Shown: positions 1-35,790 of the stretch, piece by piece
Position numbering within the stretch: the first letter of the stretch is position 1
Layout of the letters: each line of letters begins with the position of its first letter
From: a virus
Virus record (IMG/VR): IMGVR_UViG_3300042453_004439
Span: 1 to 38,661 of that record
Reading direction: 5' to 3' (one strand)
DNA length: 38,661 nucleotides
Program-made: the position numbers and the translations under genes
Notes under the pieces: model-generated
Databases searched by the model: none
Seen by the model: the letters and a program-made list of their open reading frames with translations, nothing else
Told to the model about the DNA's origin: nothing

Positions 1-760
1 CACTTGTTCCAGACGAACCACTTGTTCCTGAAGAACCCGGTGTTCCGGGTGAACCTGCTGAACCATTACCTCCAGAAGTTCCAGATGAACCGTTAGAACC
101 GTTTGTTCCTGAAGAGCCACTTGTTCCAGACGAACCACTAGTTCCAGACGAACCACTTGTTCCAGACGAACCACTTGTTCCTGAAGAACCCGGTGTTCCG
201 GGTGAACCTGCTGAACCATTACCTCCAGAAGTTCCAGATGAACCGTTAGAACCGTTTGTTCCTGAAGAGCCACTTGTTCCTGAAGAGCCGCTTGTTCCAG
301 ATGAACCGTTTATTCCTGAAGATCCACTAGTTCCAGAAGAACCGCTTGTTCCCGATGAACCTCCAGAACCATTTGTTCCACTAGTTCCAGATGAACCACT
401 AGTTCCAGAAGATCCACTTGTTCCTGAAGAACCACTAGTTCCAGAAGATCCACTTGTTCCTGAAGATCCACTTGTTCCTGAAGAACCTCCAGAACCATTC
501 GTCCCACTTATTCCTGAAGATCCACTAGTTCCAGATGAACCATTTCTGCCAGAAGATCCACTTGTACCAGAAGAACCACTTATCCCTGAAGAACCACTTG
601 TTCCAGATGAACCGTTTGCACCCGGTGATCCTGCTGAACCGTTAACGCCTGATGTTCCAGAAGAGCCGTTTGATCCAGTTGTCCCAGAAGATCCGCTAGT
701 TCCAGAAGAACCATTGCTTGATCCAGAAGAACCGCTTGTTCCACTACTTGTTTGACCACC
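1..760 (-). repeat. Collagen-like Gly-X-Y coding repeat with a 153-bp direct repeat
   Basis: Every third codon is Gly over about 250 codons of the minus-strand fibre gene; X and Y are mostly Ser, Thr and Asn, with a few Pro and Ala. Within this, bases 1-127 recur identically at 154-280, a period of 153 bp or 51 residues (17 triplets). Further degenerate 9- and 18-bp periodicity runs to about 760. Low-complexity minus-strand ORFs read in other frames here are shadows. Such repeats can change length by recombination and are prone to misassembly. Confidence 0.9.
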
Positions 761-3007
761 ATTATTAGAAGTTATTTCAAATCCTCTATATATTATAAAA
801 TTAGCTTCAGTAGGTGAAAGAGCAAACAGTACAGGTTTTGTTACTTGTCCTACAAATGTAGGCTCTATATCTGTATACGCACCTGAAGTATAAGGCGAAA
901 GAAAATAAACATCACCCTCATTCAAAGAGCTTAAACCTGTTACTCTGCCATTATAAACTAAATCAAAATCATTACCATTTATATTTTGAACGATACCAAC
1001 TACTTCGGATGTAGCTACTGAATCTGCCTTTGCTTCAAACCATCCTGTAACATCATTAAAACCTAATAAATCTCCAGTTGTAAAAGTATGACCAGTTTGA
1101 GTAAACGTTCTAATTAATCTTTCTGCGTCTTGTGCAAATTCACTTGAAGCGCCAGATTGCAATTTTAAAACATTATTTTCTAATACTAAATACTGTGTAG
1201 CTCCTGAAGTTAAATTAGGTAATTGATTAAATACTAACTGATTGCTACCACTATATCTTATTGTACCTGTAGTTATTGTGTCTTTATCATTAAATACAGC
1301 TAAATAACCACTAGTTCCTAATCCGTCGATTACAAATTTACCTCTTGTTACGCCTGTGACAACATTGGTTATTTGCCCTGACGTAAATCTTAAAACATCA
1401 GAAAAATCAGAAAAACTACCATCTTGATAAGAAGCTCGAACTTTGACTTCATAATTTTTATTTGGCTTTATAGGAAATTTAATTTTTGGTTCAAATTCAG
1501 ATAAAATGAAATCAGCATTTCCTGTTATCCTTTTCGCAAATAATATACCAGTTTCATAATTGTTAATCAATGGTCCGCTACCAGCAGAACCTGCCGATCC
1601 TGCGGACCCTGCATTTGCTCCTGTATATCTAGCTCCAGTATATGTTCCAGTATAAACCGACCCTGTAAAAAGTCCACCCGTAGGTAAAAAGATAAAATTA
1701 TTTTGCCCAGTATCGTATGTTGAAACGAAATACAATTCAGATGAATTTATAAAACCAGACGGAATTCTTACCTCAGTAATATATTTTAAATCCGTAGTTG
1801 AATTATAAATACCTAACGGCAATGAATTATAATTATCTATAAATAATGTATGATCAACCCATTGTATCCCCGAAGTGCTGTATTTCTTAAAAATTGGATC
1901 TGAACCAGAATAATATGATGAACCAGTTGCATTCTTTATTATTCCACTTCCAGTACCATAAAAAATTTGTTTTATTGATTGAACTTGAGGATTATTTGAA
2001 GTATATACATAATTGGCATTATCAACTCCGTCCTCATAAACATAGGTTTCAAAAGATAAAGCATTATCTGTTTTTATGGCGTTCCATTTTACAATAGCCT
2101 GTGTATCTAAATTTTTGTCGTATTCATTCTGAGAACAAGAAACATAACCAGTAACATTTGATATTTTTAAAGGTACTAGTGATGTATCATAATATGAGGT
2201 TTTTATACCAGAACTTAAAAACCAAGATCCAGTACTAAAATAATCTCTAGGTACAAAAACAAAATTAGTTGGCAATACTATTTCTAAATTCTCATCAACA
2301 AAAGACGGTGCATCTAACAGCAAATTTTGTATATATCTATCATTTTCATAATCAAAAGATGTTTTATAATATCCACTGACAAGATCAAAAAAACCTGCAG
2401 TATTAGGTATTATATTTTTATTGTATACGGAATATACATCAACAGATTTCAGATAACCAAAATTATTAACCAAAGGAGCAATATTTATAGGATTAGTATT
2501 TCTTATTTGCAAACCTGTAATTTCAACTTTTGGATAATTTAAAAGAAAGTGATAAACATCTTGATTACCAGCGCGATCATATGTTTTAAAATCAAGAAAA
2601 ACCTCTCTAACCTGATTTAAATTTAAAGCCCCTGTTATATTTTGCAAATAAGAAGCTAAAATGCTAGAATCAATTGTAAAATCCGTCTGCTTAGAACCTA
2701 AAAAATAAGAACCGAGAAAAGATCTATTTTTAGAATATACATCAACATTTAAACCAGAAAACGTTTCCGCTAATATAGTCGCATTTGCTAAAACTTTATC
2801 ATCTTCTGGATTTTTTATCGATAAAGCAACATCAAAAGATGATTGATTTATTGTACCAGAAACTAATTTAGCAGATGGAGAAAGACCAAAAAGTGTTGGA
2901 TTTATAGTATAATCCAAACTAGAAAAAGCGTTTAGATTAGGAACTTGTAAGTTTAAAACCTCATAAATTCCATAGCTATTCGTATTTGATCCTGTAATTA
3001 TAGGCAT
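1..3007 (-). CDS. Collagen-like tail fibre protein (3'-truncated by window)
   Basis: The frame is open from an ATG at 3005-3007 to the left edge, giving at least 1002 residues without a stop; the C-terminus lies outside. It follows the J homologue directly, the usual place for side fibres or tip extensions. The N-terminal two-thirds is beta-rich with fibronectin-III-like stretches, for example near residues 260-330 and 505-560. Residues about 610-745 resemble a knob domain common in phage fibres just before collagen repeats. From about residue 748 the chain is pure Gly-X-Y, mainly GSSGTS, and should form a trimeric rod. The start lies inside the motif GTGTAATTTATAAATATG, whose TAA is the stop of the upstream J gene. 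Role inferred: trimeric fibre for host contact. The lack of stops was checked by hand-translating several stretches, not every codon. Confidence 0.85.
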   Translation of the reverse strand, partial: MPIITGSNTNSYGIYEVLNLQVPNLNAFSSLDYTINPTLFGLSPSAKLVSGTINQSSFDVALSIKNPEDDKVLANATILAETFSGLNVDVYSKNRSFLGSYFLGSKQTDFTIDSSILASYLQNITGALNLNQVREVFLDFKTYDRAGNQDVYHFLLNYPKVEITGLQIRNTNPINIAPLVNNFGYLKSVDVYSVYNKNIIPNTAGFFDLVSGYYKTSFDYENDRYIQNLLLDAPSFVDENLEIVLPTNFVFVPRDYFSTGSWFLSSGIKTSYYDTSLVPLKISNVTGYVSCSQNEYDKNLDTQAIVKWNAIKTDNALSFETYVYEDGVDNANYVYTSNNPQVQSIKQIFYGTGSGIIKNATGSSYYSGSDPIFKKYSTSGIQWVDHTLFIDNYNSLPLGIYNSTTDLKYITEVRIPSGFINSSELYFVSTYDTGQNNFIFLPTGGLFTGSVYTGTYTGARYTGANAGSAGSAGSAGSGPLINNYETGILFAKRITGNADFILSEFEPKIKFPIKPNKNYEVKVRASYQDGSFSDFSDVLRFTSGQITNVVTGVTRGKFVIDGLGTSGYLAVFNDKDTITTGTIRYSGSNQLVFNQLPNLTSGATQYLVLENNVLKLQSGASSEFAQDAERLIRTFTQTGHTFTTGDLLGFNDVTGWFEAKADSVATSEVVGIVQNINGNDFDLVYNGRVTGLSSLNEGDVYFLSPYTSGAYTDIEPTFVGQVTKPVLFALSPTEANFIIYRGFEITSNNGGQTSSGTSGSSGSSNGSSGTSGSSGTTGSNGSSGTSGVNGSAGSPGANGSSGTSGSSGISGSSGTSGSSGRNGSSGTSGSSGISGTNGSGGSSGTSGSSGTSGSSGTSGSSGTSGSSGTSGSSGTSGTNGSGGSSGTSGSSGTSGSSGINGSSGTSGSSGTSGSSGTNGSNGSSGTSGGNGSAGSPGTPGSSGTSGSSGTSGSSGTSGSSGTSGSSGTNGSNGSSGTSGGNGSAGSPGTPGSSGTSGSSGTS

Positions 3008-17267: not shown

Positions 17268-20200
17268 TTATACATAAGATTGTTTATTAAATCCACCATA
17301 TCTATTTGCTTTTTGTATTTGATTATCAGCAACTTTTGCGATATTACGGGCTAAATTTTGACTGAATATCATTTCATTCGAATCGTAATTATTTCCAGAT
17401 TGACCTAATACAAACTGGCCAGATTTATTATAACTACCAACATTAGCGACAATATTAATATTGCTGTTATTTGTATTGTTAGTATTATTTGTGGTGCTAT
17501 TGCTGCCGCCACCTTGTATCCTAGAGCTATTTGCAGAAATATATTTATTATTTGCGGCATTTGATATAGCATTCATTCCGCCAGACATATATCTAGGAAC
17601 ATTATCGGAAATACGAGATCCATATGGAATAAAACCACCAGATTGATAACGACCAATGCCTAAATTCGATACTAATCCACCAGTTTGCCCAAATGTTTTC
17701 AGAGATTGTGGCTTACCAGACATCGTATTCTTTCCTGCAACTGGACTTTTTCCTCCGCCTCCCGCACTTCCTAAACTACTTAAACCCTGAGCCAATGCTA
17801 TTGATCCTACTGCCCCAACAACACTGCTTATTAATTGAGCGCGTTTTTGCTTTGCTTGAAACTCTTTATTAACTCTTTCTTTTTCTGTTTCAATTGATTT
17901 TTGACGCATGTTTTTAAAGAAAGGATCATTTTCAAAAGCATACGCACTATAATCATCTAAACTTACAGGTCTAGTGTCCATACCGCTACCAATTAAATTA
18001 CCTGAATAATTTAATTCATCTTCTATTAAAGATTGTTGAGCGGCAAAACCAAAACCACCACCACTTTGAAAACGAGGTGCCACGCCATAATTTAAACCAT
18101 CTAAATTATTCACTCCAATTGCTGCGACCGCTTCTCTATTTAATACATATTCTCCATCTTCTAATAAGGCTAAATTTCTGTCTCCAGTTCTGTTGCCGGG
18201 TATATATGTACCATTTTCAGCACGAATAATACCGCCTCTTTGTTTACCAACGATTCCTCCGTTTTGAAATAAACCGCTACCAATAGAACCAATAGCTCTA
18301 TACATAGCTGCTCTCATAACTTCTTGCATCAACATTTGACCAAAATTAATCACCATATCTTGCAATGCATCGCCAATAGATTTTGTTCCTTTTGCGACTT
18401 CCATTAAAGCATTTGTCATACCATCTGCAAAAGCAGAAGGCGCTCTTTCTGCTAAATCCAATATAATTTGATCTGATTGTTTAGCCATATTACCAAAACC
18501 CTTTTCAAGTCTACCCATTATTGTTGTGTTTAATCTTTCGTTTTCTTGTTTAATTCTAATATCTTCATCTACAGTTTGTCTTTGTATGCCTAATATTTTT
18601 TCTCTTGTTTCGTATTGTTTTTTCAATAATTCAACTTGGGATTCTAATACTGGATTTCCTTTTGCTAATTCAGAAAGTTGAGTGAAATCAAGTACTGGTG
18701 CATTTGCACCTAATGCGCCAGCAGAACCAAGACTTGATTGATTTTTTTGAGCGGCTAAGTAAGCTTGATATTTTCTAGCAGTACCTAATCCAAATCTACT
18801 ATCAATATTTTCAGGATTTGCATTATATGCATATGCTTCTTGAATTTTATTTATTTCAGATTGACCACCTAAATCTTCAGCTAATCTATCAGTTATCCAC
18901 TGATTCATCACTTGAGTTAATTTTTCTAATGCATTTGTATTTTGAATTTCAGCAGCAAGTTGCAATTGAGCTTGAGCCATTTCTGTGGCTAAATTTTGAT
19001 CTTCCATTCTTCTTTGTTCCTCAAGAACTTTATTTTCTATACCTATTCTTCTTTCCAAACTTTCCCTAACACCCATTCCATATTCTTGGCGAGGATCTTC
19101 TAATCCTCTTCTTAAAGCAGCAATATATGATTCAGAATTAGCTTTTGCAATGTCGATGGCGAAACCTAAATTTTTAGCAGTAATTTCTGCTTCTTTTATT
19201 CTAGTAAAATTTTCTTTTTGAATTCTATTACTCTCAACTGAATATTGTAATTCGGCTGCAATTTTTAATCTATTTAAATCTTGTTTTATTTGTAATTCTT
19301 TTTCTGCGTTTTGTTGTTCTAATTCTAAAGAAGTTTTATTTCTTTCTCTTTCAGCAATTGCTCTTGCTATGTCATCTTTTGCAAATTGATTTTTAGCAAA
19401 TTCACTTGCTTTTAATGCATTATTTAAAGCATCTAATATAAGTGTAAATTCATTAACAATTTTTTGTCTTTCTTCTTCAGGAGCCATAGCAACTTTAGCT
19501 TCCATAGCAGCTTTAGTTGCATTTCTAAATCCTTCCACGTCTTGTGATTTTGTTAAATCTAAAGTGGCTGGTAAACCTAATGTATTAGATTTTATTAAAT
19601 CATTAAATTGTTTTGTTCTTTCTGATTGAATTTCTTTCGCTACGTTTCCAACGTTTATTTCATTATATTTTCCGCTTTGAAGTTGATTCAATACTTTATC
19701 TCTAAAAAATTGAGCATTTTCTTGAGAAGTTAACATTGAATCTTTAAATACTTTTGTTAACTCTTCAGCATTTCTTTGTAAGAATTTAGATTTTTCTTTA
19801 TCTTGTTGAATTTGAAATGCAGCATAATCATCATTTAATTTAACTAAAGAATCTTCAGCTTTTGTTTTAGCAGCGATGTTTGCGTATTCAAATTTTTTAA
19901 TTTCTGGCAAATTACTCATCATGTAAGATGATATTTGATCATTTAAAGATGACGTAAAATCAGAAATTATAGATTGTATTCTTTGACTGCTTGATTTTTT
20001 CTCAAATTCTATAGCAGTAACAAATGCAGCTTGCTCAAGAGAGTCTTGAATTTTTTGAAAAATTGAAGCGACGCTTTCTGTAGCTTTATTTCTGTAGTTT
20101 TGAATATATTTAGATAAATCTAATACATCTGCATTTTTTTCGATTTCAAAAGCTAAATTTTCAAGTTTTGATGGATCTAAACTTAATTTATATAAATTAG

Positions 20201-23200
20201 CAACCGCATTTTTAAAAATAGAATCATATTCTGTAGTATTTTCAGGAGTTATGTTTTGACTATTTAATAGATCTTTTACTGTATTTTCTATAATTTTTAT
20301 CGAAGCTCCCGGAATTGTTCTTTGAATATCTGCTGCTTGCATCAATCCGCTCGCCAATGATTTTCTTTGTTCTTGATTTAAAGAAACCGCATATCCCGCA
20401 GCTATATCTTTAGCAGATCCTTTTCCAATTAAAGCTTTTTCAAAAGCTGCTTTTTTAGTAGTTTGATTTGTATAATCTTGCAATTGCTTAGTCATAATTT
20501 GCAAATCACCACCAGCTTTTAAAAATTCTTCTTGCAATTTTGTATCTTTTATTTGTAAAAAGTTTTCACTTAATTTTTTAGTAGCATTTTCGATTTCTGT
20601 AGAAGAAGCTCCTCTTGCAATCATATCTGTCAAATTCTTTTGAGCATCAATATATGAAGTAGCAGACTGAATATTTTCTTGAGCTTTTTGAGTTTGTTTT
20701 TCATTTAATTGCATCAACTCATCTGCTGACAATGTGGCAGCACTTAATGAACTATTAAATGCGACTAAACCACCAACAACAGCGCCAACAGCTCCACCTA
20801 ATCCCGGAAATATTAAATTACCAATTGATGCTCCTGTGCTAATAGATGTTAAACCAGTACTCAAAAACGATTTACCCATTCTTTCAGTTACGCTTAAATC
20901 TGTTCTTTCTTTGTTTCCATATAACCCTTGTTCAAATTGAGCAGCGATCAATGGTACAGCAAACATTGCTGTATTTGTAAATTTATCGAGTCTTTCTTTT
21001 GAAGGTAGACTTTGAACCATCTTCTGATAAAAAGATTTGACAGAATTACTGAAGCCTCCAGAAGAAGCAGTAACCATGCTATTTGTTTTCGCAAAAACAG
21101 ATTGTATATTATTTTTTAATGCTTTATAACCATTCTCAATTGGATCAAGTAAATAATATGCTGGATACGCTTGAATACTTAAAAATGTATTTCTAATATC
21201 ATTTAAAGCTTTAGTGGCTAAAGCATTTATTTCAGCTTGTAGTCTAGCTGGATCAAAACCACTTTGTGTAGCAGATGGTTGAGGTTGATTTCTTGCTCTT
21301 TGCCTTTGTTGCCTTCTCATACCAGCAAAATTAGGTACAAATCCTTTGTTCATCAAACCAGCATCTTTTTGATTCTTTATAGAATCTGATAATGCGTTAT
21401 TCAATCCACCATGATCAGAAATAGCTGCTGCAAAATTAGGCTGAGAACTGTTACGTATGAATGGAAAAGGTCCGCTTTGTGTATCTAATATAGCTTTATT
21501 ACCGCTCATATTAGACTCAAGATTCATTACTCTATTTACATAATCAGCAGCAAAATTAGGCATAAAACCTGAAGAAAATTTACTCAAATTATCTAATCTT
21601 TTAGATAATATTTTTCTATATTTTCCACCATGTTTTTGAATAATATTCTTATTAGCAAGTAAATCTTTAATTTGACTTCTTATTTCTGAATCGGATAGAT
21701 CTCCAAATACTGTACCAGCAAGACGTTCAGGATCTCTTAAAGTATCTACTTCTCCAACTTCAGTTCCAAATTTATCTCCTTTCAATCCGCCTTGCGCTCT
21801 ATAAGCTAAAGCGCCACCTGAATCTATTTGATATGGAACACCAAATTTATCTACAACAACATTATCAAAATCTAAACCCAAAGCATCCCAGTCACCTAAT
21901 AAAGAAATAGCCGCAAATCTTTCTTTTAGTTGGTCTTTAGTAGATTCATTTAAAGATGAATTTAAATGCTTACCTTCAATATATTCAGTTAATTGAAAAA
22001 CTTTATTTTTATCTTTTATCAATCTAGAATCAGGAACTTTGATTCCAAAAGCAGAATATAATTTATTTGCTCTTGCTTCATTGATAATATGTCCTGAAGA
22101 AGCTCCAAATTTTTGAACTAATAATTGTTTTGAGATTGTATCTCTAACTAAGGTAGCTCCTGTTGAACCTCCTAAATCTTTAACATATTCTAAATCTGAA
22201 CTTTTTATTCCTTTTCTTATAGCAAAATTAGGAATAAATCCACTATTAAAATAAGCGACTTCATCTTCTTTTGCATATTCATTTGATGAACGATCTTTGC
22301 TTAATATGTTATTTATATCAAATCCAATACCTTTACCACCTTGCAACTCTGATAATTTAAGCAGCGTTTCTTTAACTTTTTGTTCTCCATATTTTTTTGT
22401 TAACTCTTCGTAAGAGGTTTTGTTTAATATACGAGAAATTTTAAAATATTTTTCTCCAATCATTTTTGTTTTGACGCTAGCTGGATGCTCAATAACGCCA
22501 GAAAAACCTTCAGCTACATTATATTTTCTACTTGTTGAAATTAATGGAGATTGATCAACAAATGATTCTTGATGTTGATGCAAAAGCTCTTGTAAACGAT
22601 TAGATAAAAATGTTTGAATAAATTTAGGTGCATCTATTTTTTTCTGTTGAAAAACAAGATTATTTATTTCTTTTTCAGGAATAAATTTTGAAAAATATTT
22701 TTGTTTTAATTTTTCCCATCTTTCATCAATATCATGAACTCCTCTAATTAATGTTGCGCGAGCACCAAGTGGTAAATTTTTGACATAATTTTCATAAATT
22801 TCATTATATTTTTTTCTATCCATTCTTGTTTGCGTGTCTCTTAATTTGAATCCAACGCTCAATGATTCTCTGCTAGTTTGACTGGCATTAGCAAGATTCA
22901 TTCTTATCATATCTCTCAATAAATTTTTATCAAGAGAAGCGAAATTAGGTATGAAACCGTCACTTGCTTGTATAATTTGTTCTGTTCCTCTTTTGACTTC
23001 TTTGTCAGCATTATAGAATAAATATTCCGGTCTACCTCCAATACTGCGTACAATATTATCTATATTTTCTAAAGGCTTTTCACTATGCCACATTTCAATT
23101 AATTCGTTTTTAGCTTGTGTAAATTTTGTTCTTAATGTAGCATCAGGAGTAGTGTCACCAGACTTCATTTCAATAACAGGACCAGTCAAATTATCTTCTA

Positions 23201-26123
23201 ATGCATCAATTCTGGTATTACCTGGAGCCCCATGAAATCTTTTACCACCTTTTTCATAATTTGAAGCAAAAACAATATTATTTGTGGCAAACATTTGTTT
23301 TGCTTTTTCAAGCGCCAAACGTTCGAAATTTTTTGCGAATGGATTTGTTTGCGAAGTTGTTGTACTACTAGGTAATGTACCTATACCAGCAATACCTATT
23401 CTTTTAAATCCTGAACTCAATACTCTTTGTAGTACTCCTTCTTTTCTTTTTTCAATAGCATCAACTGATTTTACATAACCTGCATCATAAGCTTGCTTTA
23501 AAGTAAAAGGCGCATCTGCCTCATTTAATTCTCCTCTTTCAATTTTTCCAACAACAGAACCAACTCTTGCATTCCTTAATTTTCTATATTTTCCAAAACC
23601 TTGATAATAGTCACTAGGCAATTCTGCTGTTGCAAAATTTGGAATATAACCAGAAGACAAATATTTTCTTCTTGAACCGCTATATGTTAACTTTGCAAAA
23701 AAATCTTTATCAGGAATTATAGATTCTCCAATAGTTGACTCTTTAAATAATCTTTCTTTATCTTTAAAAATATCTATAAATTTTCTTTGTTTTTCATATT
23801 GTTCAGCTTTAGGATGAAAATATTCTCTATTACCATTTGAAAGCTGTATAAATTTTGACCAAATACCTATCGAATTATTTTTAGCGTTTTCTGTTAATTG
23901 TATTAAATTTGGATCCCTAGTATATCGAAAATCTGGAACACCCAAACCATTACTAACTAAAACTGAGGCCACATTAGTATCATCAAAGATAGATCTAAAA
24001 TAAGCGCTTTTACCTTTTGCAATAATATTTCTATTTAATCTATCAACGCCTTGATCTCCTTGATAATAACTTTTTAATATATCAGTCGATTCTTTATAAT
24101 ATTTTTGATTATTTTCAGGAGCATCGACTTTTGCTAAACGAAAATCGATTGTTTTAGGATCTATAGGCAAACCTTCTATAGTATCGCCATCTTTAACACT
24201 TGTTATTTGCGCAACAATTTTTTCTGCAAAATTAGGAATAAATCCAATATTCATATATGGATCAATACCTGTTCTACTTATTGAGTTACGCCTATGACTT
24301 CTTCCAGCTTGAGAATTAGCGGGTGGATTTATGAATGGTTGAGCAAAACCGGGCATATATTTGACCTGTTCAGCAGTATTCATTACTCCACCAACAGGAG
24401 ATTGAACAACCCTGCCCGGCATATAACCACCAGCAATTGCGCCGATAGTTTCTTGAAGTTTTGCTTCTTTAGGAATATATCCGCCGCTTCTTGTAACTCT
24501 TAAACCTCCTGAACCTTTAACAGTTACTCCTTGTGCAGATAATGCTGGAGCCAAAGCAGCAACTAATGCTTGTTGTCTTTGATATTCTGCTGTTTGTTGT
24601 CTTGCTAGTTGTAATAATAACTGCGCTTGAGCAGTTTGATTACCCATTTGACCAGCTAAGGCTTGGGCAACTGGTCCTTGTTGCTGCATAATTTGCAAAA
24701 TAGCTTGTTCAATATTTTTTCTGTTTTGTGTTTCTGTTGTTATACCAACAATCTGAGGCAATGCTTGAGAAAGATATGTAAAAGAATTTTGTATTAACTT
24801 AAACAATACGAAAAATGCACCAATTGCTCCGGGACCAGCTAATACATTTCGAATACCTTTTAATAAACCATTTGCAAAAGTAGAACCTACGCCTTCACCT
24901 TCAAGAATCTCATTTAAATTCTCAAATAATGATTTAAATGATTCTGCCGTATATTTAGCTAAAGGTTCAAATGTTACTTTACCAACATTATTGGCGAACT
25001 GTTGAGCAACTGTGCTAGTTTGGCTTAATAAAGCATCTAATGTTTGATTTAATTTAGCGGCAGCAATTTGAGCTTCGTTTGTCGCCATTGCGCCTTTTTG
25101 CAAAGCTCCAGCATAAGCTCCTTGTTTATTGTTTAAATCTCCAATAATTGCTTTTAATATGTTTACTTGATAAACACCTGCAACTTGTTCAGATAATTGC
25201 GCTCTTTGTGAATCAGCTAAATTATTGTAAGCGCCTGCAAAATTTTGTAATATTTGTACAGCGGGTAAAATATTACCTTGAATATCGCGAACTCCGATAT
25301 TAAAAGCTTCTAACTGATCAAGCGTTTCAGTACGTTGTAATCTTGTAAAAATTGTTTTTAATGCGTTACCGATAACAGCACCACCACGCGCAGTTTTTTC
25401 CTGCGCCGCTGTAACAAGCGCGTTTAATTGATCGATATTAACACCAGCTTCTTGAGCTGCTAGACCTGTTCTAGAAAGAGCTTCAGCTAAATCACCAGCA
25501 CTAACCGCATAACTTTGTTCGACAGCAACTAATTTATTTAAAACTTGTGTTGTTGTAATTCCTGTAGCTTGGAAACCATTTACTGTAGCCGTTAATGCTT
25601 CGATAGCATTATTTACATTCATACCTGCCAATCTGGCAAGAGTCATTGCGTCTGCTGTTCTTTGTAATACTTCTTCAGCTTTAACACCTTGACGTGAAAA
25701 TTCTAGAGCAGCTTTAGATGCATCACCAAAAGAACTAGCTGTTTGTTTGCTAACATTAAACAAATCTGTGCTAAATTTTTGTAATTCTTTAGTAGTTAAT
25801 CCGAAAACGCGATTAATATCAGCTAAATTCTTTTCTACTTCAATAGTGACTTCAGCTATACTTCTGAAACTACGTAAAACACCACCTAATACAGCAGTTG
25901 ACGCACCGAACGCGATAACACGCGCATTAGAAGCAGCCAATGCAGCCTCGAAATCCTTAACATCACCTGTAATTCGACCAAGAGGTTGAGAAAAAGCTCT
26001 TGCATTTACTTGTAAATTAATTGGATTTTGATTCGCAAATCGTTGATTGTAAGCTTGTACACCGGCTTGGATTGATTGAACTAAGGCGGCTTGATTTGCT
26101 GCTACATTGATTTGGACTGCCAT
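17268..26123 (-). CDS. Giant tape measure protein carrying an enzyme cassette
   Basis: 2951 residues. Residues about 85-335 match the TP901-type tape measure domain. Residues 420-460 and 1757-1790 are hydrophobic or Gly-rich membrane-active candidates. Residues about 1800-2600 are largely helical and coiled coil. The C-terminus has the usual GGIVG, GTYIPG (2638-2643) and DGEYVLNREAV motifs. The protein sets tail length and is ejected ahead of the DNA during infection. Unusually, residues 627-1600 hold four enzyme-like domains (nuclease, nuclease, ADP-ribosyltransferase, kinase-like) separated by GF[IVM]PNFA peptides at 627, 825, 1056, 1295, 1519 and 1594, with a bare PNFA at 1562. Two chaperone-like genes lie upstream and the tube-like gene 6 bp downstream. 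The ATG at 26121-26123 is preceded by GTGTAAATAATAAAT. The reading frame is unbroken. Confidence 0.95.
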   Translation of the reverse strand: MAVQINVAANQAALVQSIQAGVQAYNQRFANQNPINLQVNARAFSQPLGRITGDVKDFEAALAASNARVIAFGASTAVLGGVLRSFRSIAEVTIEVEKNLADINRVFGLTTKELQKFSTDLFNVSKQTASSFGDASKAALEFSRQGVKAEEVLQRTADAMTLARLAGMNVNNAIEALTATVNGFQATGITTTQVLNKLVAVEQSYAVSAGDLAEALSRTGLAAQEAGVNIDQLNALVTAAQEKTARGGAVIGNALKTIFTRLQRTETLDQLEAFNIGVRDIQGNILPAVQILQNFAGAYNNLADSQRAQLSEQVAGVYQVNILKAIIGDLNNKQGAYAGALQKGAMATNEAQIAAAKLNQTLDALLSQTSTVAQQFANNVGKVTFEPLAKYTAESFKSLFENLNEILEGEGVGSTFANGLLKGIRNVLAGPGAIGAFFVLFKLIQNSFTYLSQALPQIVGITTETQNRKNIEQAILQIMQQQGPVAQALAGQMGNQTAQAQLLLQLARQQTAEYQRQQALVAALAPALSAQGVTVKGSGGLRVTRSGGYIPKEAKLQETIGAIAGGYMPGRVVQSPVGGVMNTAEQVKYMPGFAQPFINPPANSQAGRSHRRNSISRTGIDPYMNIGFIPNFAEKIVAQITSVKDGDTIEGLPIDPKTIDFRLAKVDAPENNQKYYKESTDILKSYYQGDQGVDRLNRNIIAKGKSAYFRSIFDDTNVASVLVSNGLGVPDFRYTRDPNLIQLTENAKNNSIGIWSKFIQLSNGNREYFHPKAEQYEKQRKFIDIFKDKERLFKESTIGESIIPDKDFFAKLTYSGSRRKYLSSGYIPNFATAELPSDYYQGFGKYRKLRNARVGSVVGKIERGELNEADAPFTLKQAYDAGYVKSVDAIEKRKEGVLQRVLSSGFKRIGIAGIGTLPSSTTTSQTNPFAKNFERLALEKAKQMFATNNIVFASNYEKGGKRFHGAPGNTRIDALEDNLTGPVIEMKSGDTTPDATLRTKFTQAKNELIEMWHSEKPLENIDNIVRSIGGRPEYLFYNADKEVKRGTEQIIQASDGFIPNFASLDKNLLRDMIRMNLANASQTSRESLSVGFKLRDTQTRMDRKKYNEIYENYVKNLPLGARATLIRGVHDIDERWEKLKQKYFSKFIPEKEINNLVFQQKKIDAPKFIQTFLSNRLQELLHQHQESFVDQSPLISTSRKYNVAEGFSGVIEHPASVKTKMIGEKYFKISRILNKTSYEELTKKYGEQKVKETLLKLSELQGGKGIGFDINNILSKDRSSNEYAKEDEVAYFNSGFIPNFAIRKGIKSSDLEYVKDLGGSTGATLVRDTISKQLLVQKFGASSGHIINEARANKLYSAFGIKVPDSRLIKDKNKVFQLTEYIEGKHLNSSLNESTKDQLKERFAAISLLGDWDALGLDFDNVVVDKFGVPYQIDSGGALAYRAQGGLKGDKFGTEVGEVDTLRDPERLAGTVFGDLSDSEIRSQIKDLLANKNIIQKHGGKYRKILSKRLDNLSKFSSGFMPNFAADYVNRVMNLESNMSGNKAILDTQSGPFPFIRNSSQPNFAAAISDHGGLNNALSDSIKNQKDAGLMNKGFVPNFAGMRRQQRQRARNQPQPSATQSGFDPARLQAEINALATKALNDIRNTFLSIQAYPAYYLLDPIENGYKALKNNIQSVFAKTNSMVTASSGGFSNSVKSFYQKMVQSLPSKERLDKFTNTAMFAVPLIAAQFEQGLYGNKERTDLSVTERMGKSFLSTGLTSISTGASIGNLIFPGLGGAVGAVVGGLVAFNSSLSAATLSADELMQLNEKQTQKAQENIQSATSYIDAQKNLTDMIARGASSTEIENATKKLSENFLQIKDTKLQEEFLKAGGDLQIMTKQLQDYTNQTTKKAAFEKALIGKGSAKDIAAGYAVSLNQEQRKSLASGLMQAADIQRTIPGASIKIIENTVKDLLNSQNITPENTTEYDSIFKNAVANLYKLSLDPSKLENLAFEIEKNADVLDLSKYIQNYRNKATESVASIFQKIQDSLEQAAFVTAIEFEKKSSSQRIQSIISDFTSSLNDQISSYMMSNLPEIKKFEYANIAAKTKAEDSLVKLNDDYAAFQIQQDKEKSKFLQRNAEELTKVFKDSMLTSQENAQFFRDKVLNQLQSGKYNEINVGNVAKEIQSERTKQFNDLIKSNTLGLPATLDLTKSQDVEGFRNATKAAMEAKVAMAPEEERQKIVNEFTLILDALNNALKASEFAKNQFAKDDIARAIAERERNKTSLELEQQNAEKELQIKQDLNRLKIAAELQYSVESNRIQKENFTRIKEAEITAKNLGFAIDIAKANSESYIAALRRGLEDPRQEYGMGVRESLERRIGIENKVLEEQRRMEDQNLATEMAQAQLQLAAEIQNTNALEKLTQVMNQWITDRLAEDLGGQSEINKIQEAYAYNANPENIDSRFGLGTARKYQAYLAAQKNQSSLGSAGALGANAPVLDFTQLSELAKGNPVLESQVELLKKQYETREKILGIQRQTVDEDIRIKQENERLNTTIMGRLEKGFGNMAKQSDQIILDLAERAPSAFADGMTNALMEVAKGTKSIGDALQDMVINFGQMLMQEVMRAAMYRAIGSIGSGLFQNGGIVGKQRGGIIRAENGTYIPGNRTGDRNLALLEDGEYVLNREAVAAIGVNNLDGLNYGVAPRFQSGGGFGFAAQQSLIEDELNYSGNLIGSGMDTRPVSLDDYSAYAFENDPFFKNMRQKSIETEKERVNKEFQAKQKRAQLISSVVGAVGSIALAQGLSSLGSAGGGGKSPVAGKNTMSGKPQSLKTFGQTGGLVSNLGIGRYQSGGFIPYGSRISDNVPRYMSGGMNAISNAANNKYISANSSRIQGGGSNSTTNNTNNTNNSNINIVANVGSYNKSGQFVLGQSGNNYDSNEMIFSQNLARNIAKVADNQIQKANRYGGFNKQSYV
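21570..22220 (-). other. Kinase-fold domain (HipA/PI3K-like) inside the tape measure protein
   Basis: Residues 1302-1518. A Gly-rich loop LGGSTGA (1317-1323) precedes LLVQKF with Lys1338, then NEARANKLY with Glu1349 and a hinge-like LTEYIEG (1378-1384). The candidate catalytic loop is GDWDALGLDFDNVVV with Asp1413 and Asn1421. A metal-binding QIDSGGAL follows, with Asp1434. This is the order of a protein-kinase-like fold, closest in style to HipA or PI3/4-kinase-like families. The substrate could be protein or lipid; I cannot tell. Confidence 0.6.
22242..22937 (-). other. ADP-ribosyltransferase-like domain inside the tape measure protein
   Basis: Residues 1063-1294. The R-S-E pattern of arginine-type ADP-ribosyltransferases is present in order: ATLIRGV with Arg1127, then PLISTSRKYNVAEGF with the S-T-S at 1196-1198 and a downstream Ala/Phe, and KEDEVAYF with Glu1286 and Glu1288 (E-x-E). 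T4 packages and injects comparable enzymes (Alt) that modify host RNA polymerase, so delivery with the tape measure would make sense. Target and activity are inferred. Confidence 0.7.
22959..23630 (-). other. PD-(D/E)XK nuclease-like domain inside the tape measure protein
   Basis: Residues 832-1055. The core lies at about 930-1010: a helix with Glu934/Glu939, then TRIDAL with Asp973, a strand PVIEMKSG with Glu985 and Lys987 (E-x-K), and a following helix with Gln1003. This order fits the restriction-endonuclease-like fold. About 100 residues precede the core and have no recognised fold. It is flanked by GYIPNFA (825-831) and GFIPNFA (1056-1062). Assignment is by motif only; HHpred or a structure model would confirm it. 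Confidence 0.65.
23652..24224 (-). other. Staphylococcal-nuclease-like domain inside the tape measure protein
   Basis: Residues 634-824 of the tape measure protein. The domain opens with VKDGDTIEG (Asp645, Asp647, Thr648), followed by FRLAKVDAPE with Arg662, Asp667 and Glu670, and a later Arg698 in DRLNRNIIA. These correspond to Asp21, Arg35, Asp40, Glu43 and Arg87 of staphylococcal nuclease, so the calcium-binding and catalytic set looks complete. The closing LVSNGLG segment is also typical. It is bounded by GFIPNFA at 627-633 and GYIPNFA at 825-831. A DNA- or RNA-cutting activity is likely; its target is unknown. Confidence 0.85.
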
Positions 26124-26149: not shown

Positions 26150-27148
26150 TCAATTTCCAAATATTTTAAGCATGTCATCCATCGAAAGACTACCACCTTT
26201 CTTTTTTGCTTCATCTGCTAATGATAAAGTCTTTTGTCCGGGTTTGGTAATATTAAGATATTCTAGATCCTCTTTCGTAGCTCCGACAATAGATTCAGCT
26301 CTATTTTCAGCGTTTCCATTTTTATCTCTTAGTTTCTTAACATTTTCATTTGCATTTATATAATCCATTATTTTATCAGGATCAGAACGAATTTCTGGCG
26401 GCATATTTTCATTCTGCTGAAATATATTTCTAAAAAATCTAGCATAAATAAGCAATTTTAATTGATTATATGTTAAATCACAAACAGGCTTATTAAAAAA
26501 CTCAATAGGATTTTCACAAAATGGCATATACAAATTAAAAAAATCTTGCAAAATAATTTTTTGTATACTGTTATCGTTTATTTCTTTATAAACTTCATTA
26601 TATTGTTTAATTATTGCAAATAAGCTTTCGGCATCAATATCATCATATTCTTCTTTCTCATATACTAAATACTTTAATTCTCTATCTTTATACAAACATT
26701 TAATAATATAATAATCATTAACTTTATCTTCAGCATAAGATTCTGCTGTTCTATTGAATAAAGATGCGCGAGTATTTTTTAAATCGTTTAATATATTAGA
26801 ATTATCTTCAATTTCTTTGTTAAGTCTTTCTATTTCTGATTTAAGATAAGTATTTTTCTTTTGTTTAAGAAAGTTTTCAATCATTTGTTCATATTGCAAT
26901 ATTTTATTTTCTTGATTTTGAGTCCATTGTTTTTCTTCGATTAATTGCTTGAGAACTTCTTTATGTGAAGGTACGCCTTTTGATTTAGCTTCTGCTAAAT
27001 ATTCATTATAAATAAGTTCAATACCAACTTGATCATCAAAAGACAAATGTTTGAGATAAAAAAAATTCTCTAAGATTTTAACCTCAGAGAATCCGTTTTT
27101 AATATCTCTAAATATTTTTTTGTAGTTATTCTGTTGGAATTTTTCCAT
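26150..27148 (-). CDS. Tail assembly chaperone-like protein, second of pair (GT/T position)
   Basis: I use the ATG at 27146-27148, giving 332 residues; a GTG at 27157 would add three. The protein is helical, Lys/Glu/Asn-rich, with a probable coiled coil at about 75-130, and has no recognised motif. It lies directly upstream of the tape measure gene and overlaps the preceding gene by 23 bp, the place where siphophages encode the two tail assembly chaperones (lambda G and T). Its frame is +1 relative to the upstream gene. It could be made by its own start or by frameshifting in the overlap. Role inferred: it coats the tape measure protein before tube polymerisation. Confidence 0.65.
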   Translation of the reverse strand: MEKFQQNNYKKIFRDIKNGFSEVKILENFFYLKHLSFDDQVGIELIYNEYLAEAKSKGVPSHKEVLKQLIEEKQWTQNQENKILQYEQMIENFLKQKKNTYLKSEIERLNKEIEDNSNILNDLKNTRASLFNRTAESYAEDKVNDYYIIKCLYKDRELKYLVYEKEEYDDIDAESLFAIIKQYNEVYKEINDNSIQKIILQDFFNLYMPFCENPIEFFNKPVCDLTYNQLKLLIYARFFRNIFQQNENMPPEIRSDPDKIMDYINANENVKKLRDKNGNAENRAESIVGATKEDLEYLNITKPGQKTLSLADEAKKKGGSLSMDDMLKIFGN

Positions 27149-27905
27149 CGATTTCACCGATTATTCTATCAAACTCTTCTTTATCAACATTGCTTGTGAA
27201 AAACCAATAACTAATAATACTCGCTAGCTTACTATAACACTTTGCATAAATTTCATTTTCATTTTCTTCGTATTCATGCATTGAACCTTCCTTAGCTTCA
27301 AAAGACTTACCAGCAAATAATGGTTCGAATTCTGCATTCTTCTTTGATGTGTCCTTGAAAAATGAAAGATTTAAAACATACCAAAGAATTGCGCGATTCT
27401 GAGCTTTAATATCAGCAGTATGATTGAACAAAGTAATATAACTAGTTTCTTTTTCAATCAAAGTCTTACGCTTTTGAAGAATTTGAGATGTAATATCTTC
27501 AATCTTCTTCTTTTCATCTTCATCTCTTTCTGATTCCGGCTTCAAATTAAGAATAGTAAGTTTTGCTTGTAATTCGCGTATTTCATCAGCCGAATTAATC
27601 ATAATCTTAGCATCAGCTTCGCTAATTAAACCTCCGGTATCATTGTACTTATTCAATAACATTGCTTTAGTCAAAATACCATTGCGAATGCATTTACTCA
27701 TTTCAATACTGAATTCCATATCAGCTTCTTGAATTTGTTTGCGAGATGGTTGATTGATAAGAATTTCGACAGGTACTTCTTTCTTTGTTTTTTCCTTATA
27801 AGTTCTTGTTACTGATTCGCCCTGCTCATTTGTTGTCGTTTCGGACTTCTCTTCTTCGATTTCAGCGATTTTATTGATAGTAAACTGATATAAAACTTTG
27901 GCCAT
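27126..27905 (-). CDS. Tail assembly chaperone-like protein, first of pair (G position)
   Basis: A 259-residue, highly charged, mainly helical protein with a short beta N-terminus and Lys/Glu-rich coiled stretches near 100-150. I recognise no motif. It is the first gene of the leftward tail operon, and the overlapping gene and tape measure follow it, so by synteny it corresponds to lambda gpG. It is longer than gpG (140). The ATG at 27903-27905 is 56 bp from the divergent plus-strand operon. No Shine-Dalgarno sequence is visible. Confidence 0.65.
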   Translation of the reverse strand: MAKVLYQFTINKIAEIEEEKSETTTNEQGESVTRTYKEKTKKEVPVEILINQPSRKQIQEADMEFSIEMSKCIRNGILTKAMLLNKYNDTGGLISEADAKIMINSADEIRELQAKLTILNLKPESERDEDEKKKIEDITSQILQKRKTLIEKETSYITLFNHTADIKAQNRAILWYVLNLSFFKDTSKKNAEFEPLFAGKSFEAKEGSMHEYEENENEIYAKCYSKLASIISYWFFTSNVDKEEFDRIIGEIDGKIPTE

Positions 27906-32361: not shown

Positions 32362-33123
32362 TTAAAGACCAAATCTAGCGCGGTTTGCATTAAAATTTTG
32401 TCTTATTTCTGCAACTGATAAAACTCTACTATAAAATTTAAAAATAGCAAACGCTACTTTTACATTACTTAATGCATTGGTTACGGCTCCAGCAGAATGC
32501 ATAGCTAAAGTAATATTATTATTTCCACTAAAAGGACTTCTTGACCAACTAAGAAAAGCTTTCAAATCTCCATTCAAATAGTATCTTTGACCAAGAGCCC
32601 CTCCACTAACATCAACTGTAAAAACAACTTGATAATATTGATTAGTATTAAGAAAAGTAGCTGAAGATTCAGAACAATAAGTGCCTGTCCAACCATAAAG
32701 CGATAGGTAACCAGCTGCGTTTTGATTTACTATATTAAAATAAGTGGTGTCATTATCTGTTCCTTGAGTACTGGTACTATCTGATCCAGTTCCAGCATCA
32801 TTAGCCACACTTACGAATCTACCATTAAAATTCGTTCCAAATGTTCCTGTATAACTTCTCATCCATATTTCAATAGAAATAGGGCCTTGCAAAAGAGTAT
32901 TAATATTACTACTTCTTCTTCTTGCGTAATCATTAACTCCGTCAAATTGTAATTCGCCACCAAAGTTATTAGCAAAAGTTGGACTATTATATAAAGTATA
33001 ATGTTCATTTCTACCACTCAAATCGTGCCAGATAGTCGCACCAGATCCGGCGTAACTTTTTTTATCAGCAACATCTAGATGAGTAATTAATCCATTTGTT
33101 ATTATTTTAGGTCCGTATTGCAT
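32362..33123 (-). CDS. ConA-like/LamG lectin-type virion protein (paralogue 1)
   Basis: 253 residues making up a single ConA-like jelly roll. It opens with GPKIITNGLITHLDVADKKSY, followed by WHDLSGRN and FDGVNDY, and closes with FKFYSRVLSVAEIRQNFNANRARFGL. The first and last segments nearly match those of the next two genes, so the three are tandem duplicates. Phage LamG proteins of this kind are fibre or decoration subunits likely to bind glycans. It starts 6 bp after the upstream stop. Confidence 0.86.
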   Translation of the reverse strand: MQYGPKIITNGLITHLDVADKKSYAGSGATIWHDLSGRNEHYTLYNSPTFANNFGGELQFDGVNDYARRRSSNINTLLQGPISIEIWMRSYTGTFGTNFNGRFVSVANDAGTGSDSTSTQGTDNDTTYFNIVNQNAAGYLSLYGWTGTYCSESSATFLNTNQYYQVVFTVDVSGGALGQRYYLNGDLKAFLSWSRSPFSGNNNITLAMHSAGAVTNALSNVKVAFAIFKFYSRVLSVAEIRQNFNANRARFGL

Positions 33124-33129
33124 AAAAAA

Positions 33130-33885
33130 TTAAATACCGAAACGTCCACGTTGAGCGTTGAAATTTTGTGTTACTTGTGATTGAGTAAAACCAATATTAT
33201 ATAATTTAACATTATAAAAGTCTATATTACTGGGCCAAGAATAATCATTATTCGATGGTACTCGCGTCGTTTTAGCGCAACCTGCAATCAAATCATTATA
33301 ACCATAATTTGTTGGAGCGGTAATATTTGAAGAAGTAATTAAAGCGCCATTTATGTAAATATACATAGTGTTACTTATTCTTACGGCATTAATTACTATA
33401 TTTTTACTTACATATGAAGTAATATTGGTAACTAAAGCAACCTCACCTGTTGTACCATTCCAAATTACATATAATAAATTAGTATTATCTAACATTAAAC
33501 CACTATGAAAACCGGGCCAAATAAGTATTCCAGTTCTTATTTCTGTGGTATACGCGGCGTTTAAATCAATGCCTCTTGTCAATGAATTAATTTTACAAGC
33601 CACTTCTATAGTATGATTATTATACAATAAATTTCTTATTGTAGTATTATTGTTGTTACAGAAAGCGTGATTCTGAGTTGTAGCTATAAAAGATGTTTTT
33701 ATAGCATTATTACTAAATGTTGGAATTGCGCCGCCTGCGCCAGCAAAACCTAAAGTAAAATTTGCTCTATTACCACTTAAATCTCGCCACGCAGTTCCAG
33801 ATCCTGAATAACTTGTTCTATCCGCAGCATCAATGCATAATACTAAGCCATTCGTAATAATTTTTGGACCGTTATTTCCTGCCAT
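33130..33885 (-). CDS. ConA-like/LamG lectin-type virion protein (paralogue 2)
   Basis: 251 residues from the ATG at 33883-33885. I chose this over the non-ATG start at 33924 because its product begins MAGNNGPKIITNG in line with the paralogues, and the shared GTGTAA motif abuts it. The LamG signature is clear: LVLCIDAADRTSYSGSG, WRDLSGN, and an ending NFNAQRGRFGI identical to that of paralogue 3. There are several Cys residues but no obvious pairs. Expected role as for paralogue 1. Confidence 0.86.
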   Translation of the reverse strand: MAGNNGPKIITNGLVLCIDAADRTSYSGSGTAWRDLSGNRANFTLGFAGAGGAIPTFSNNAIKTSFIATTQNHAFCNNNNTTIRNLLYNNHTIEVACKINSLTRGIDLNAAYTTEIRTGILIWPGFHSGLMLDNTNLLYVIWNGTTGEVALVTNITSYVSKNIVINAVRISNTMYIYINGALITSSNITAPTNYGYNDLIAGCAKTTRVPSNNDYSWPSNIDFYNVKLYNIGFTQSQVTQNFNAQRGRFGI

Positions 33886-33905
33886 AAATATATAAAATAT
33901 TACAC
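33886..33905 (-). promoter_or_regulatory. Start-proximal motif with longer spacer
   Basis: GTGTAATATTTTATATATTT abuts the ATG at 33883-33885. The spacer is 5 bp longer than in the other copies. It overlaps the preceding TAG stop by one base. Its position supports the ATG at 33885 over an upstream non-ATG start. Confidence 0.4.
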
Positions 33906-34642
33906 TATATACCAAAACGCCCACGTTGAGCGTTAAAATTATTTAATACCTCTAAATCCGATAATTGCCTGTTATAAACTAAAACACTTGCTATTCTTCC
34001 ATTGTAATAATCAGTATTACTTCTAACGCCAACTCTTAAATTCAAAGTTGTATAAGTAATAGTAGCAGGACTTACATCTCCTCTAACGTCATAAGAACCA
34101 AGCGCTCCATTGCGATAAAATTTCATATTGGTTGCTGAATTATTTAAATTAGTAAAAACAATATTCATCCATTGATTCTTTACTAATGCATTCGCTAATC
34201 CTTGAATGCCTTTAAATTTATTTGTATCTTCAAAATTGTAATAATCAAAGAAAAAAGCGTTTGTTCTACTTGCTCCATTATCTAATCCAATATAATAACC
34301 ACTACCATAATTATCTGCCGCATAAGCTAATAAATAATCAACAGCAGCGCCACCTGCACCAGTCCAATAAGTCCAAAAAGAAATAGAAAAAGGATCTGTA
34401 TTAGCAAATCGAAAACGAGTGTTATTACTTATCGTTGCAAAATCATTTACTTTATCAAAAACTATACTTCCGCCATTTAAAGAATTAAAACTCGGGCTAC
34501 CGCTGACGCTAGAATCGGCTAAATTGCCACTTAAATCATTCCAAGCAGTTGCGCCACTTCCAGAATAACTTTTTTTATCCGCAGCATCTAAACATAAAAT
34601 CAATCCATCTCTTACTATTTTTGGTCCTCTTTGTGTTGCCAT
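33905..34642 (-). CDS. ConA-like/LamG lectin-type virion protein (paralogue 3)
   Basis: 245 residues. It begins MATQRGPKIVRDGLILCLDAAD, then has KKSYSGSGATAWNDLSGN, and ends with VLVYNRQLSDLEVLNNFNAQRGRFGI. It is the copy closest to the family consensus. The upstream gene ends 3 bp before its ATG. The shared ends and variable middles of the three copies suggest duplication followed by divergence of the ligand-binding face. Confidence 0.86.
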   Translation of the reverse strand: MATQRGPKIVRDGLILCLDAADKKSYSGSGATAWNDLSGNLADSSVSGSPSFNSLNGGSIVFDKVNDFATISNNTRFRFANTDPFSISFWTYWTGAGGAAVDYLLAYAADNYGSGYYIGLDNGASRTNAFFFDYYNFEDTNKFKGIQGLANALVKNQWMNIVFTNLNNSATNMKFYRNGALGSYDVRGDVSPATITYTTLNLRVGVRSNTDYYNGRIASVLVYNRQLSDLEVLNNFNAQRGRFGI

Positions 34643-34645
34643 ATA

Positions 34646-35071
34646 TTAAATAGTAGCAGAAAATATCGCGGCTTCTTTAAAAACATCGTCCATTTGTTCT
34701 GATGTTAATATATTTTCTTGAATAATCAAAAAAGTTAACGTGTCAGTTCTTTGAAGGAAATTTCCATATTCCCATTGAGTAGAAATTATTGTTTGATCTG
34801 GTTGCGGCAAATTATCAATTAAATTTTGAACATCATCAAATTTATTAATTAATTTTAGTTGTACTCTAAAAGCCCAAAAAGCTATTTGTTGAGGAACAGG
34901 AATTATGATCGGCGCAACAACCCACTGACAATTTTCCCAAGTGCAAGTTTCTGTATTTGGATCGTATTGTGGTTGTGGGGTTTCGATCCAACCTTTTCTT
35001 AATAAAGTTTCAATAGCATTTTGATCTGTTTCTGCTCTTAATTGACATTCGAGTGTTAAAAAAGTTGTCAT
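34646..35071 (-). CDS. Small unknown protein of the fibre block
   Basis: 141 residues, with no family I can name. Visible features are GWIETPQPQYDPNTETC, a CTWENCQWVV segment, a QIAFWAFRVQLKLINKF helix and a WEYGNFLQRTDTL segment. A protein of this kind (roughly 100-150 residues, with a WAFR helix and a W-x-Y-G-N motif) is common among phage fibre genes and could be a fibre assembly factor. It lies between two lectin-type genes with gaps of 3 and 5 bp. Confidence 0.65.
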   Translation of the reverse strand: MTTFLTLECQLRAETDQNAIETLLRKGWIETPQPQYDPNTETCTWENCQWVVAPIIIPVPQQIAFWAFRVQLKLINKFDDVQNLIDNLPQPDQTIISTQWEYGNFLQRTDTLTFLIIQENILTSEQMDDVFKEAAIFSATI

Positions 35072-35076
35072 AAATA

Positions 35077-35790
35077 TTATCTATTAGTATTATTTTGCGT
35101 ATCTTTAATTTTAAAAGTAAAAAACGAAGCAATCTCAAATCTTCTTCTTAATGACTTACTAATAAGACTATTGAATAATAAAAATTGCATCAAATCACTT
35201 GTATCATAATCACAACAACCATTTCTCCCACCAAGACTTATTAATGTAGTAGTTGTGCTTAGTGCTACACCTGTACTGGAAGCAAAATCTCCTCTATAAA
35301 AAAATAGTTGAGTACCGTTGTATCCTAAACTTTGAACATATGGTGTATTAACAGAAATTGTTGCTGGATAATAGTTTAAAGATGGAGGTCTTACATTTGT
35401 TCCCACTAAATTCGTAGTAGTATGAGCAAATGAAAAATTAACAGCGTTAAAACTACCATCACTAGTAGACACTAAATGTTTATCAGCATTAATCGTTCTT
35501 GGAACTTCAGTTCCAATCCAGACATATCGAGAAGGATTTTCAGAAGTTAGCCAAGAAACACTTAAATAATCATTGACACCATCAAAGCTTACGGCTGGCT
35601 GTCCTCCTTGTATATTAGTTTTATAAGTAGGAGCAGCTGCGCCAGTAAAATTTCTAGTTCGTGTACTTAAATCGACCCATGAAGTGACTGAACCATTATT
35701 GGCAACTCCCTTTATTGATCTAGCGTCTAAAACAATAATAGCACCTGCGCTTTTAGCAGAAAAAACTATATGTCTATTTCTTCTATGCAT
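35077..35790 (-). CDS. Divergent ConA-like/LamG lectin-type protein
   Basis: 237 residues. The N-terminus IIVLDARSIKGVANNGSVTSWVDLS and the FDGVNDYLS block identify a LamG-type fold, but it lacks the GPKIITNG start and RGRFG end of the three tandem paralogues. It has a C-terminal helical tail (FEIASFFTFKI). It begins 1 bp after the stop of the large fibre gene, so it may be a fibre-tip or accessory lectin for that fibre. ATG at 35788-35790. Confidence 0.78.
   Translation of the reverse strand: MHRRNRHIVFSAKSAGAIIVLDARSIKGVANNGSVTSWVDLSTRTRNFTGAAAPTYKTNIQGGQPAVSFDGVNDYLSVSWLTSENPSRYVWIGTEVPRTINADKHLVSTSDGSFNAVNFSFAHTTTNLVGTNVRPPSLNYYPATISVNTPYVQSLGYNGTQLFFYRGDFASSTGVALSTTTTLISLGGRNGCCDYDTSDLMQFLLFNSLISKSLRRRFEIASFFTFKIKDTQNNTNR

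Follow-up and report, generated by a model that had tools for sequence, protein, structure and literature searches.

The window analysed here is the whole of IMG/VR virus record IMGVR_UViG_3300042453_004439, a stretch of 38,661 nucleotides whose minus strand carries a single open reading frame (ORF) of 2951 residues, without internal stop, encoding a tape measure protein (TMP). The protein has a conserved N-terminal domain that matches the Pfam family PhageMin_Tail (E 6.7e-27), it matches PHROG tape measure families (best E 5.6e-46), and a lambda-type tail gene cluster with homologues of J, I, K (JAB) and L lies downstream of its gene. Residues 627–1600 (window positions 21324–24245, minus strand) form an insert for which an original prediction, made from the sequence of the window, had proposed four enzyme-like domains in a row in an unbroken frame. 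The frame is indeed unbroken and the proposed coordinates proved exact, with two of the domains well supported and two recognised at motif level. All data are metagenomic sequence, and counts were taken over contigs, not over independent events. The layout of the protein is as follows.

17268..26123, minus strand: tape measure protein, 2951 aa, 0 cysteines (PhageMin_Tail, PHROG)
24744..26123, minus strand: conserved N-terminal TMP domain, residues 1–460, 97–98% identical in close relatives with other modules
24246..24743, minus strand: constant pre-cassette spacer, residues 461–626, glycine-rich, with degenerate GGYIP / GGYMP copies
24225..24245, minus strand: boundary motif 1, GFIPNFA (627–633)
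23652..24224, minus strand: module 1 (634–824), SNase; D645, D647, R662, D667, E670, R710
23631..23651, minus strand: boundary motif 2, GYIPNFA (825–831)
22959..23630, minus strand: module 2 (832–1055), PD-(D/E)XK-like; E934, D973, E985-x-K987
22938..22958, minus strand: boundary motif 3, GFIPNFA (1056–1062)
22242..22937, minus strand: module 3 (1063–1294), R-S-E ADP-ribosyltransferase-like; R1127, STS1196–1198, E1286-x-E1288
22221..22241, minus strand: boundary motif 4, GFIPNFA (1295–1301)
21570..22220, minus strand: module 4 (1302–1518), protein-kinase-fold domain; K1338, E1349, D1413, D1420-N1421, D1434
21549..21569, minus strand: boundary motif 5, GFMPNFA (1519–1525)
21345..21548, minus strand: constant post-cassette spacer (1526–1593), containing the variant SSQPNFA
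21324..21344, minus strand: boundary motif 6, GFVPNFA (1594–1600)
17268..21323, minus strand: ruler and C-terminal region (1601–2951), with hydrophobic segments at 1770–1790 and 2764–2784

By sequence and structure comparison, modules 1 and 4 are well supported as members of known enzyme families. Module 1 matches the Pfam SNase family PF00565 (E 1.5e-6, 29.1 bits against a cutoff of 21) as well as thermonuclease chains in the PDB (E 5e-4), and the SNase active-site set D645/D647, R662, D667, E670 and R710 is invariant in eight homologues of the module. The same module matches profile positions 1097–1237 of phrog_8809 (E 5.4e-10), a family of unknown function with a profile length of 2317 that may represent another large carrier protein. 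For module 4, a domain of 217 aa, AlphaFold returned a model with a pLDDT of 96 and a pTM of 0.91 (54 sequences), and a Foldseek search with this model gave 690 PDB matches at E≤0.001, protein kinases accounting for 50 of 50 among the matches listed. The conserved kinase positions include the ATP-site residues K1338 and E1349, the catalytic residues D1413 and D1420-N1421, and the metal-binding D1434. Domains homologous to module 4 (24–32% identity) occur in ten phage proteins, many of which carry an ADP-ribosyltransferase annotation, and such kinase homologues are found in phage proteins that adjoin portal and MuF genes or are annotated as particle-associated. In Yersinia phage fHe-Yen8-01 (L130:1-4890), for example, the homologous kinase domain is found with the annotations ADP-ribosyltransferase toxin and 'phage particle associated protein'.

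Modules 2 and 3 were assigned by motif. In module 2, E934, R971-x-D973 and E985-x-K987 are invariant in six sequences, down to a relative with 26% identity; the module has no Pfam match. The putative ADP-ribosyltransferase (ART) residues of module 3 (R1127, STS1196-1198 and E1286-x-E1288) are retained in its single known homologue, which is found in the relative L004. An R-S-E pattern fitting this module occurs at nine places in 1.3 million residues and at none in shuffled sequence, the other eight lying in kinase-bearing phage ORFs as typical ART C-termini. The order of modules 3 and 4 recurs in phage DSL-LC01, where the homologous kinase domain immediately follows a stretch read by eye as ART-like. 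No ART HMM or profile matched module 3, and PDB profile searches with modules 2 and 3 yielded nothing useful. Single-sequence scans of the viral collection with modules 3 and 4 gave no matches, and an alignment-based scan of it recovered hundreds of kinase relatives and, for the ART-like module, L004 only. At the level of fold, modeling bore out the predicted kinase-like domain and gave a poor model, with a pLDDT of 43, for modules 2 and 3 taken together (six sequences), albeit with an order of elements in module 2 that agrees with PD-(D/E)XK. The key residues, first described as largely intact, are complete: every expected catalytic residue is present across the four modules.

The domains listed in the original prediction are exactly the stretches between successive copies of a seven-residue peptide, G[FY][IVM]PNFA, found at residues 627, 825, 1056, 1295, 1519 and 1594. 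This boundary motif, GF[IV]PNFA in its common form, and the family-wide swapping of the modules were absent from that prediction and are added here. The motif occurs 376 times in 205k residues of TMPs selected for its presence versus 3 times in 702k residues of other ORFs, and all three of these copies sit in L136, which is another TMP. It is absent from seven TMPs of cultured phages. A DNA scan for GFIPNFA recovered at least 120 stretches, about 115 of which encode large TMP-like ORFs. When 80 homologues were instead drawn by the N-terminal domain alone, a sample that overlaps the motif-selected one, at least two motifs were present in 72 and at least one in 76, with a maximum of eight; at least one homologue (L283) has none. 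Like cassettes, which the prediction had suggested seeking in other TMPs, are thus present in at least 100 viral contigs, with differing modules. The window is a single metagenome contig and could as such be an assembly chimera; this explanation was rejected and its probability is practically nil, since independent contigs from many metagenomes and metagenome-assembled genomes (MAGs) share the cassette layout in one unbroken ORF. MAG bins containing N-terminal homologues were assigned to Flavobacteriales (5 of 9), Halobacteriovorax, Neomarinimicrobiota, Verrucomicrobiales and Proteobacteria. Because binning of phage contigs is unreliable, no host is claimed.

Close relatives show that the modules are exchanged at the motif. 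The N-terminal domains of the window TMP and of those in L002, L003, L004 and L005 are 97–98% identical, and their cassettes read SNase/PDDEXK/ART/kinase in the window, SNase/PDDEXK/X/Y in L002, SNase/PDDEXK/X in both L003 and L005, and PDDEXK-like/PDDEXK/ART in L004. Within these backbones, modules are either missing or 34–87% identical. Between the window and L002, DNA identity is 0.88 to the left of motif 3 and 0.35 to its right, and the reverse change is seen at motif 5 (0.33 left, 0.90 right). In a comparison of 128 TMP pairs whose N-termini are at least 90% identical but whose cassettes differ, the modules matched fully in 10 pairs (one of which counts so only since both cassettes lack modules of 100 aa or more), partially in 94 and not at all in 24. 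Conversely, module identity exceeds backbone identity by at least 10 points in 18 module pairs, and in L136, whose N-terminus is 38% identical, a kinase module with 47% identity is set between two motifs. Estimates of dN/dS are 0.3–0.7 for modules and 0.03 for the core, suggesting rapid but constrained evolution of the modules. In a large survey of mosaicism among phage proteins, recent exchange in TMPs could not be confirmed (PMC10684548); the swapped pairs described here are clear cases of it. In Lactococcus phage 949 and Bacillus phage vB_BcoS-136, the TMP gene is immediately preceded upstream by one for a tyrosine or site-specific recombinase (L308:5014-6006 and L310:4988-5995), which may contribute to TMP diversification in these phages.

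The abrupt change in identity exactly at the motif is what would be expected if GF[IV]PNFA were a DNA recombination seam only, a short microhomology without a role for the peptide, and motif codons are also slightly more alike within one TMP than codon usage predicts (0.62 vs 0.57). However, the peptide is retained with varied codons in TMPs that are only 35–45% identical and is nearly absent from other ORFs, making a seam without peptide function very improbable. The persistence of the peptide despite varying codons points to a role at the level of the protein besides that of an exchange seam.

The repertoire of modules is broad. Those of at least 100 aa (192 in total) fell into 73 sequence clusters, with SNase, GNAT, HIGH-type nucleotidyltransferase, P-loop and GHKL ATPase as the supported types, the P-loop and GHKL ATPase matches scoring under the Pfam cutoffs. 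A PD-(D/E)XK-like pattern was found in 19 of the 73 cluster representatives versus 1.2 expected, and profile comparison with hhalign on a partial set connects many of these clusters. Motifs alone point to HAD-like and HExxH modules and to additional ART- and kinase-like ones, and a PADLOC scan gave weak matches only, none of which was interpreted. Two composite modules were seen: one in L052 (4886-6145) joins a P-loop to a HIGH-type nucleotidyltransferase (Pfam 3.4e-8), possibly for NAD or nucleotide chemistry, and a 799-aa module in L028 (4352-6748) carries a GHKL ATPase-like domain and an HExxH motif, with a weak kinase-like link.

The modules might instead be structural or filler domains of enzyme ancestry that lengthen, plug or stiffen the TMP without catalysis. 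Total TMP length does correlate with cassette length (r 0.85, 22 complete TMPs), most modules belong to no recognisable enzyme family, and at least one homologue, L283, has no motif. On the other hand, catalytic residues are kept across divergent homologues, unrelated enzyme folds recur and dN/dS is below 1, while relatives with the same backbone have cassettes ranging from about 700 to 970 aa, a poor fit to a ruler. We therefore consider a purely structural role unlikely.

Amino acid composition ties the modules to the ruler. Only 2 cysteines were found in 66,052 residues of 271 modules (0.03 per 1000), compared with 7.47 per 1000 in neighbouring proteins and 0.10 in the TMP core. Tryptophan and histidine are scarce in the core but close to normal frequency in the modules (ratios 0.66 and 0.68). 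The modules are thus globular by composition yet follow the cysteine-free rule of the ruler, and the simplest reading is that they probably travel with it in the tail and through the oxidising envelope. No hydrophobic segment was detected inside any of 99 cassettes, so that the modules look like soluble cargo rather than membrane parts.

These properties bear on where the modules would act. TMPs are produced late in infection, and the nucleases could in principle attack rival genomes at that stage, so that the modules might function in the producing cell or during assembly, for instance against competing phages or mobile elements, without being delivered. Fusion to a low-copy virion protein would be an odd route to this end, and the cysteine exclusion of the cassettes matches the tail-resident ruler, not the neighbouring proteins; action in the producing cell thus seems improbable to us. 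Equally doubtful is that the modules, while DNA passes through, work in the envelope or periplasm without ever reaching the cytoplasm. SNase-type enzymes are often extracytoplasmic and the exclusion of cysteine would suit an oxidising compartment, but kinase, ADP-ribosyltransferase, GNAT and GHKL ATPase modules need cytoplasmic ATP, NAD or acetyl-CoA.

We favor the interpretation, with a probability of roughly 0.6, that the insert is a cargo bay within the TMP whose modules are ejected with it and act on the host as enzymes. The relatives, the swapping, the cysteine exclusion and the kinase homologues in virion-associated or head-gene-linked proteins all strengthen the original prediction of an in-frame fusion of cargo to the ruler. 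Presence in the virion, ejection with the TMP, arrival in the host cytoplasm, refolding and catalysis are inferred. In the proposed mechanism, constant spacers would flank a variable number of slots, each holding one globular module and closed by GF[IV]PNFA. The TMP and its modules would be synthesised as a single chain and packed in the tail, where modules free of cysteine could remain unfolded and form no disulfides. The motif would most likely be a protein-level unit boundary, acting as a hinge, as an anchor to the tail lumen or a chaperone, or as a cleavage site, and would double as the seam for module swapping between phages. The TMP would then be ejected ahead of the DNA, and refolding of the modules would take place at the inner membrane or across it. 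The siphophage TMP has its C-terminus at the tail tip; it is ejected and forms a channel (PMC11445458). If the orientation is the same here, the cassette would lie toward the head end and follow the tip and the hydrophobic segments out, adjacent to the DNA. Phage JBD30 has three TMP copies per tail (PMC11445458); a similarly small number would provide few copies of each enzyme, enough for catalysis. During injection in lambda, the TMP is in contact with a nuclease of the inner membrane that binds it through a cytoplasmic domain (PMC13190303), and crassvirus cargo traverses the tail partly unfolded (PMC10172136). Once inside, the few pre-made SNase and PD-(D/E)XK enzymes may act on host or competing nucleic acids, and the ADP-ribosyltransferase and kinase modules on host proteins, whether for host takeover or for anti-defence.

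Several observations weigh against this interpretation. Most modules lack a Pfam or PHROG match, and the term enzyme is therefore supported for few of them. TMPs of ordinary cultured phages are also cysteine-free, and the exclusion of cysteine is thus a constraint common to modules and ruler, not evidence of cytoplasmic delivery. Nucleases entering with the phage's own DNA require a specificity or timing yet to be explained. An HExxH metallopeptidase motif that might release the modules is missing from the window's TMP, while five other TMPs have one. Finally, the pre-cassette region matched none of 50,697 phage records, and the family has no cultured member. The broader proposition, that a widespread, as yet uncultured siphovirus family uses its TMP as a programmable injection vehicle, with peptide-defined slots and swapped cysteine-free enzymes providing infection-specific sets before gene expression, has in our estimate an even chance of being correct.

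Other features of the window include two overlapping ORFs directly upstream of the TMP gene (26150-27905), positioned like tail assembly chaperones and without a PHROG match. Several adjacent paralogous tail-region proteins (32362-35790) have the common N-terminal pattern 'GPKI..NGL....DAADK.SYSGSG..W.DLSG', and an ORF that runs off the left end (2-3007, minus strand) has long GSSGTSG collagen-like repeats and is probably a tail fibre.

Among known systems, the closest parallels to the cassette combine some of its features. Polyvalent proteins, known from phages and conjugative elements (Iyer et al. 2017, PMC5512222), also unite several unrelated enzyme domains (ART, kinase, GNAT, nucleases) in a single chain that is predicted to accompany the DNA into the host, and the module 4 kinase has homologous domains in such phage proteins. 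Polyvalent phage proteins are, however, predicted to be packaged in the capsid and often contain metallopeptidases, whereas the protein described here is a tail ruler with motif-bounded slots and no HExxH; tape measure proteins are not mentioned in PMC5512222. The Sle1/Tme effectors of contractile injection systems (CIS; PMC13277306) likewise use a TMP-like chain as a reconfigurable effector platform. They belong to bacterial contractile nanomachines and carry one C-terminal functional domain, while the present protein is a genuine lambda-type phage tail ruler with up to seven internal slots, and its gene context is not that of a CIS. Non-ruler domains are also found in TMPs with peptidoglycan-related domains, such as that of Bacillus phage Staley, which has a lysin-domain annotation; those domains act on or bind the wall, whereas the modules here are cytoplasm-type enzymes, several in a row and interchangeable. 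T4 Alt and the crassvirus cargo proteins (PMC10172136) are similarly pre-made and ejected through the tail, but as separate proteins from a capsid or tail store instead of as fusions to the ruler. By analogy, the cassette would work like a polyvalent protein on a different chassis and recalls the TMP-related CIS effectors, neither of which has motif-bounded internal slots. Literature searches of partial coverage for the motif and for cysteine-free TMPs returned no earlier description of the chassis or motif.

TMPs are usually regarded as rulers and DNA channels, and here the ruler bears a variable series of modules that resemble enzymes, set behind a universal boundary peptide. Should these modules be delivered, they would constitute a large reservoir of unknown early phage effectors, and the motif would offer a natural way of adding protein cargo to a phage tail. 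The cysteine-free signature provides a simple test for spotting other virion-ejected proteins. The swapped modules in more than 100 related viruses suggest that the ruler has a second function, that of carrying proteins into the cell being infected.
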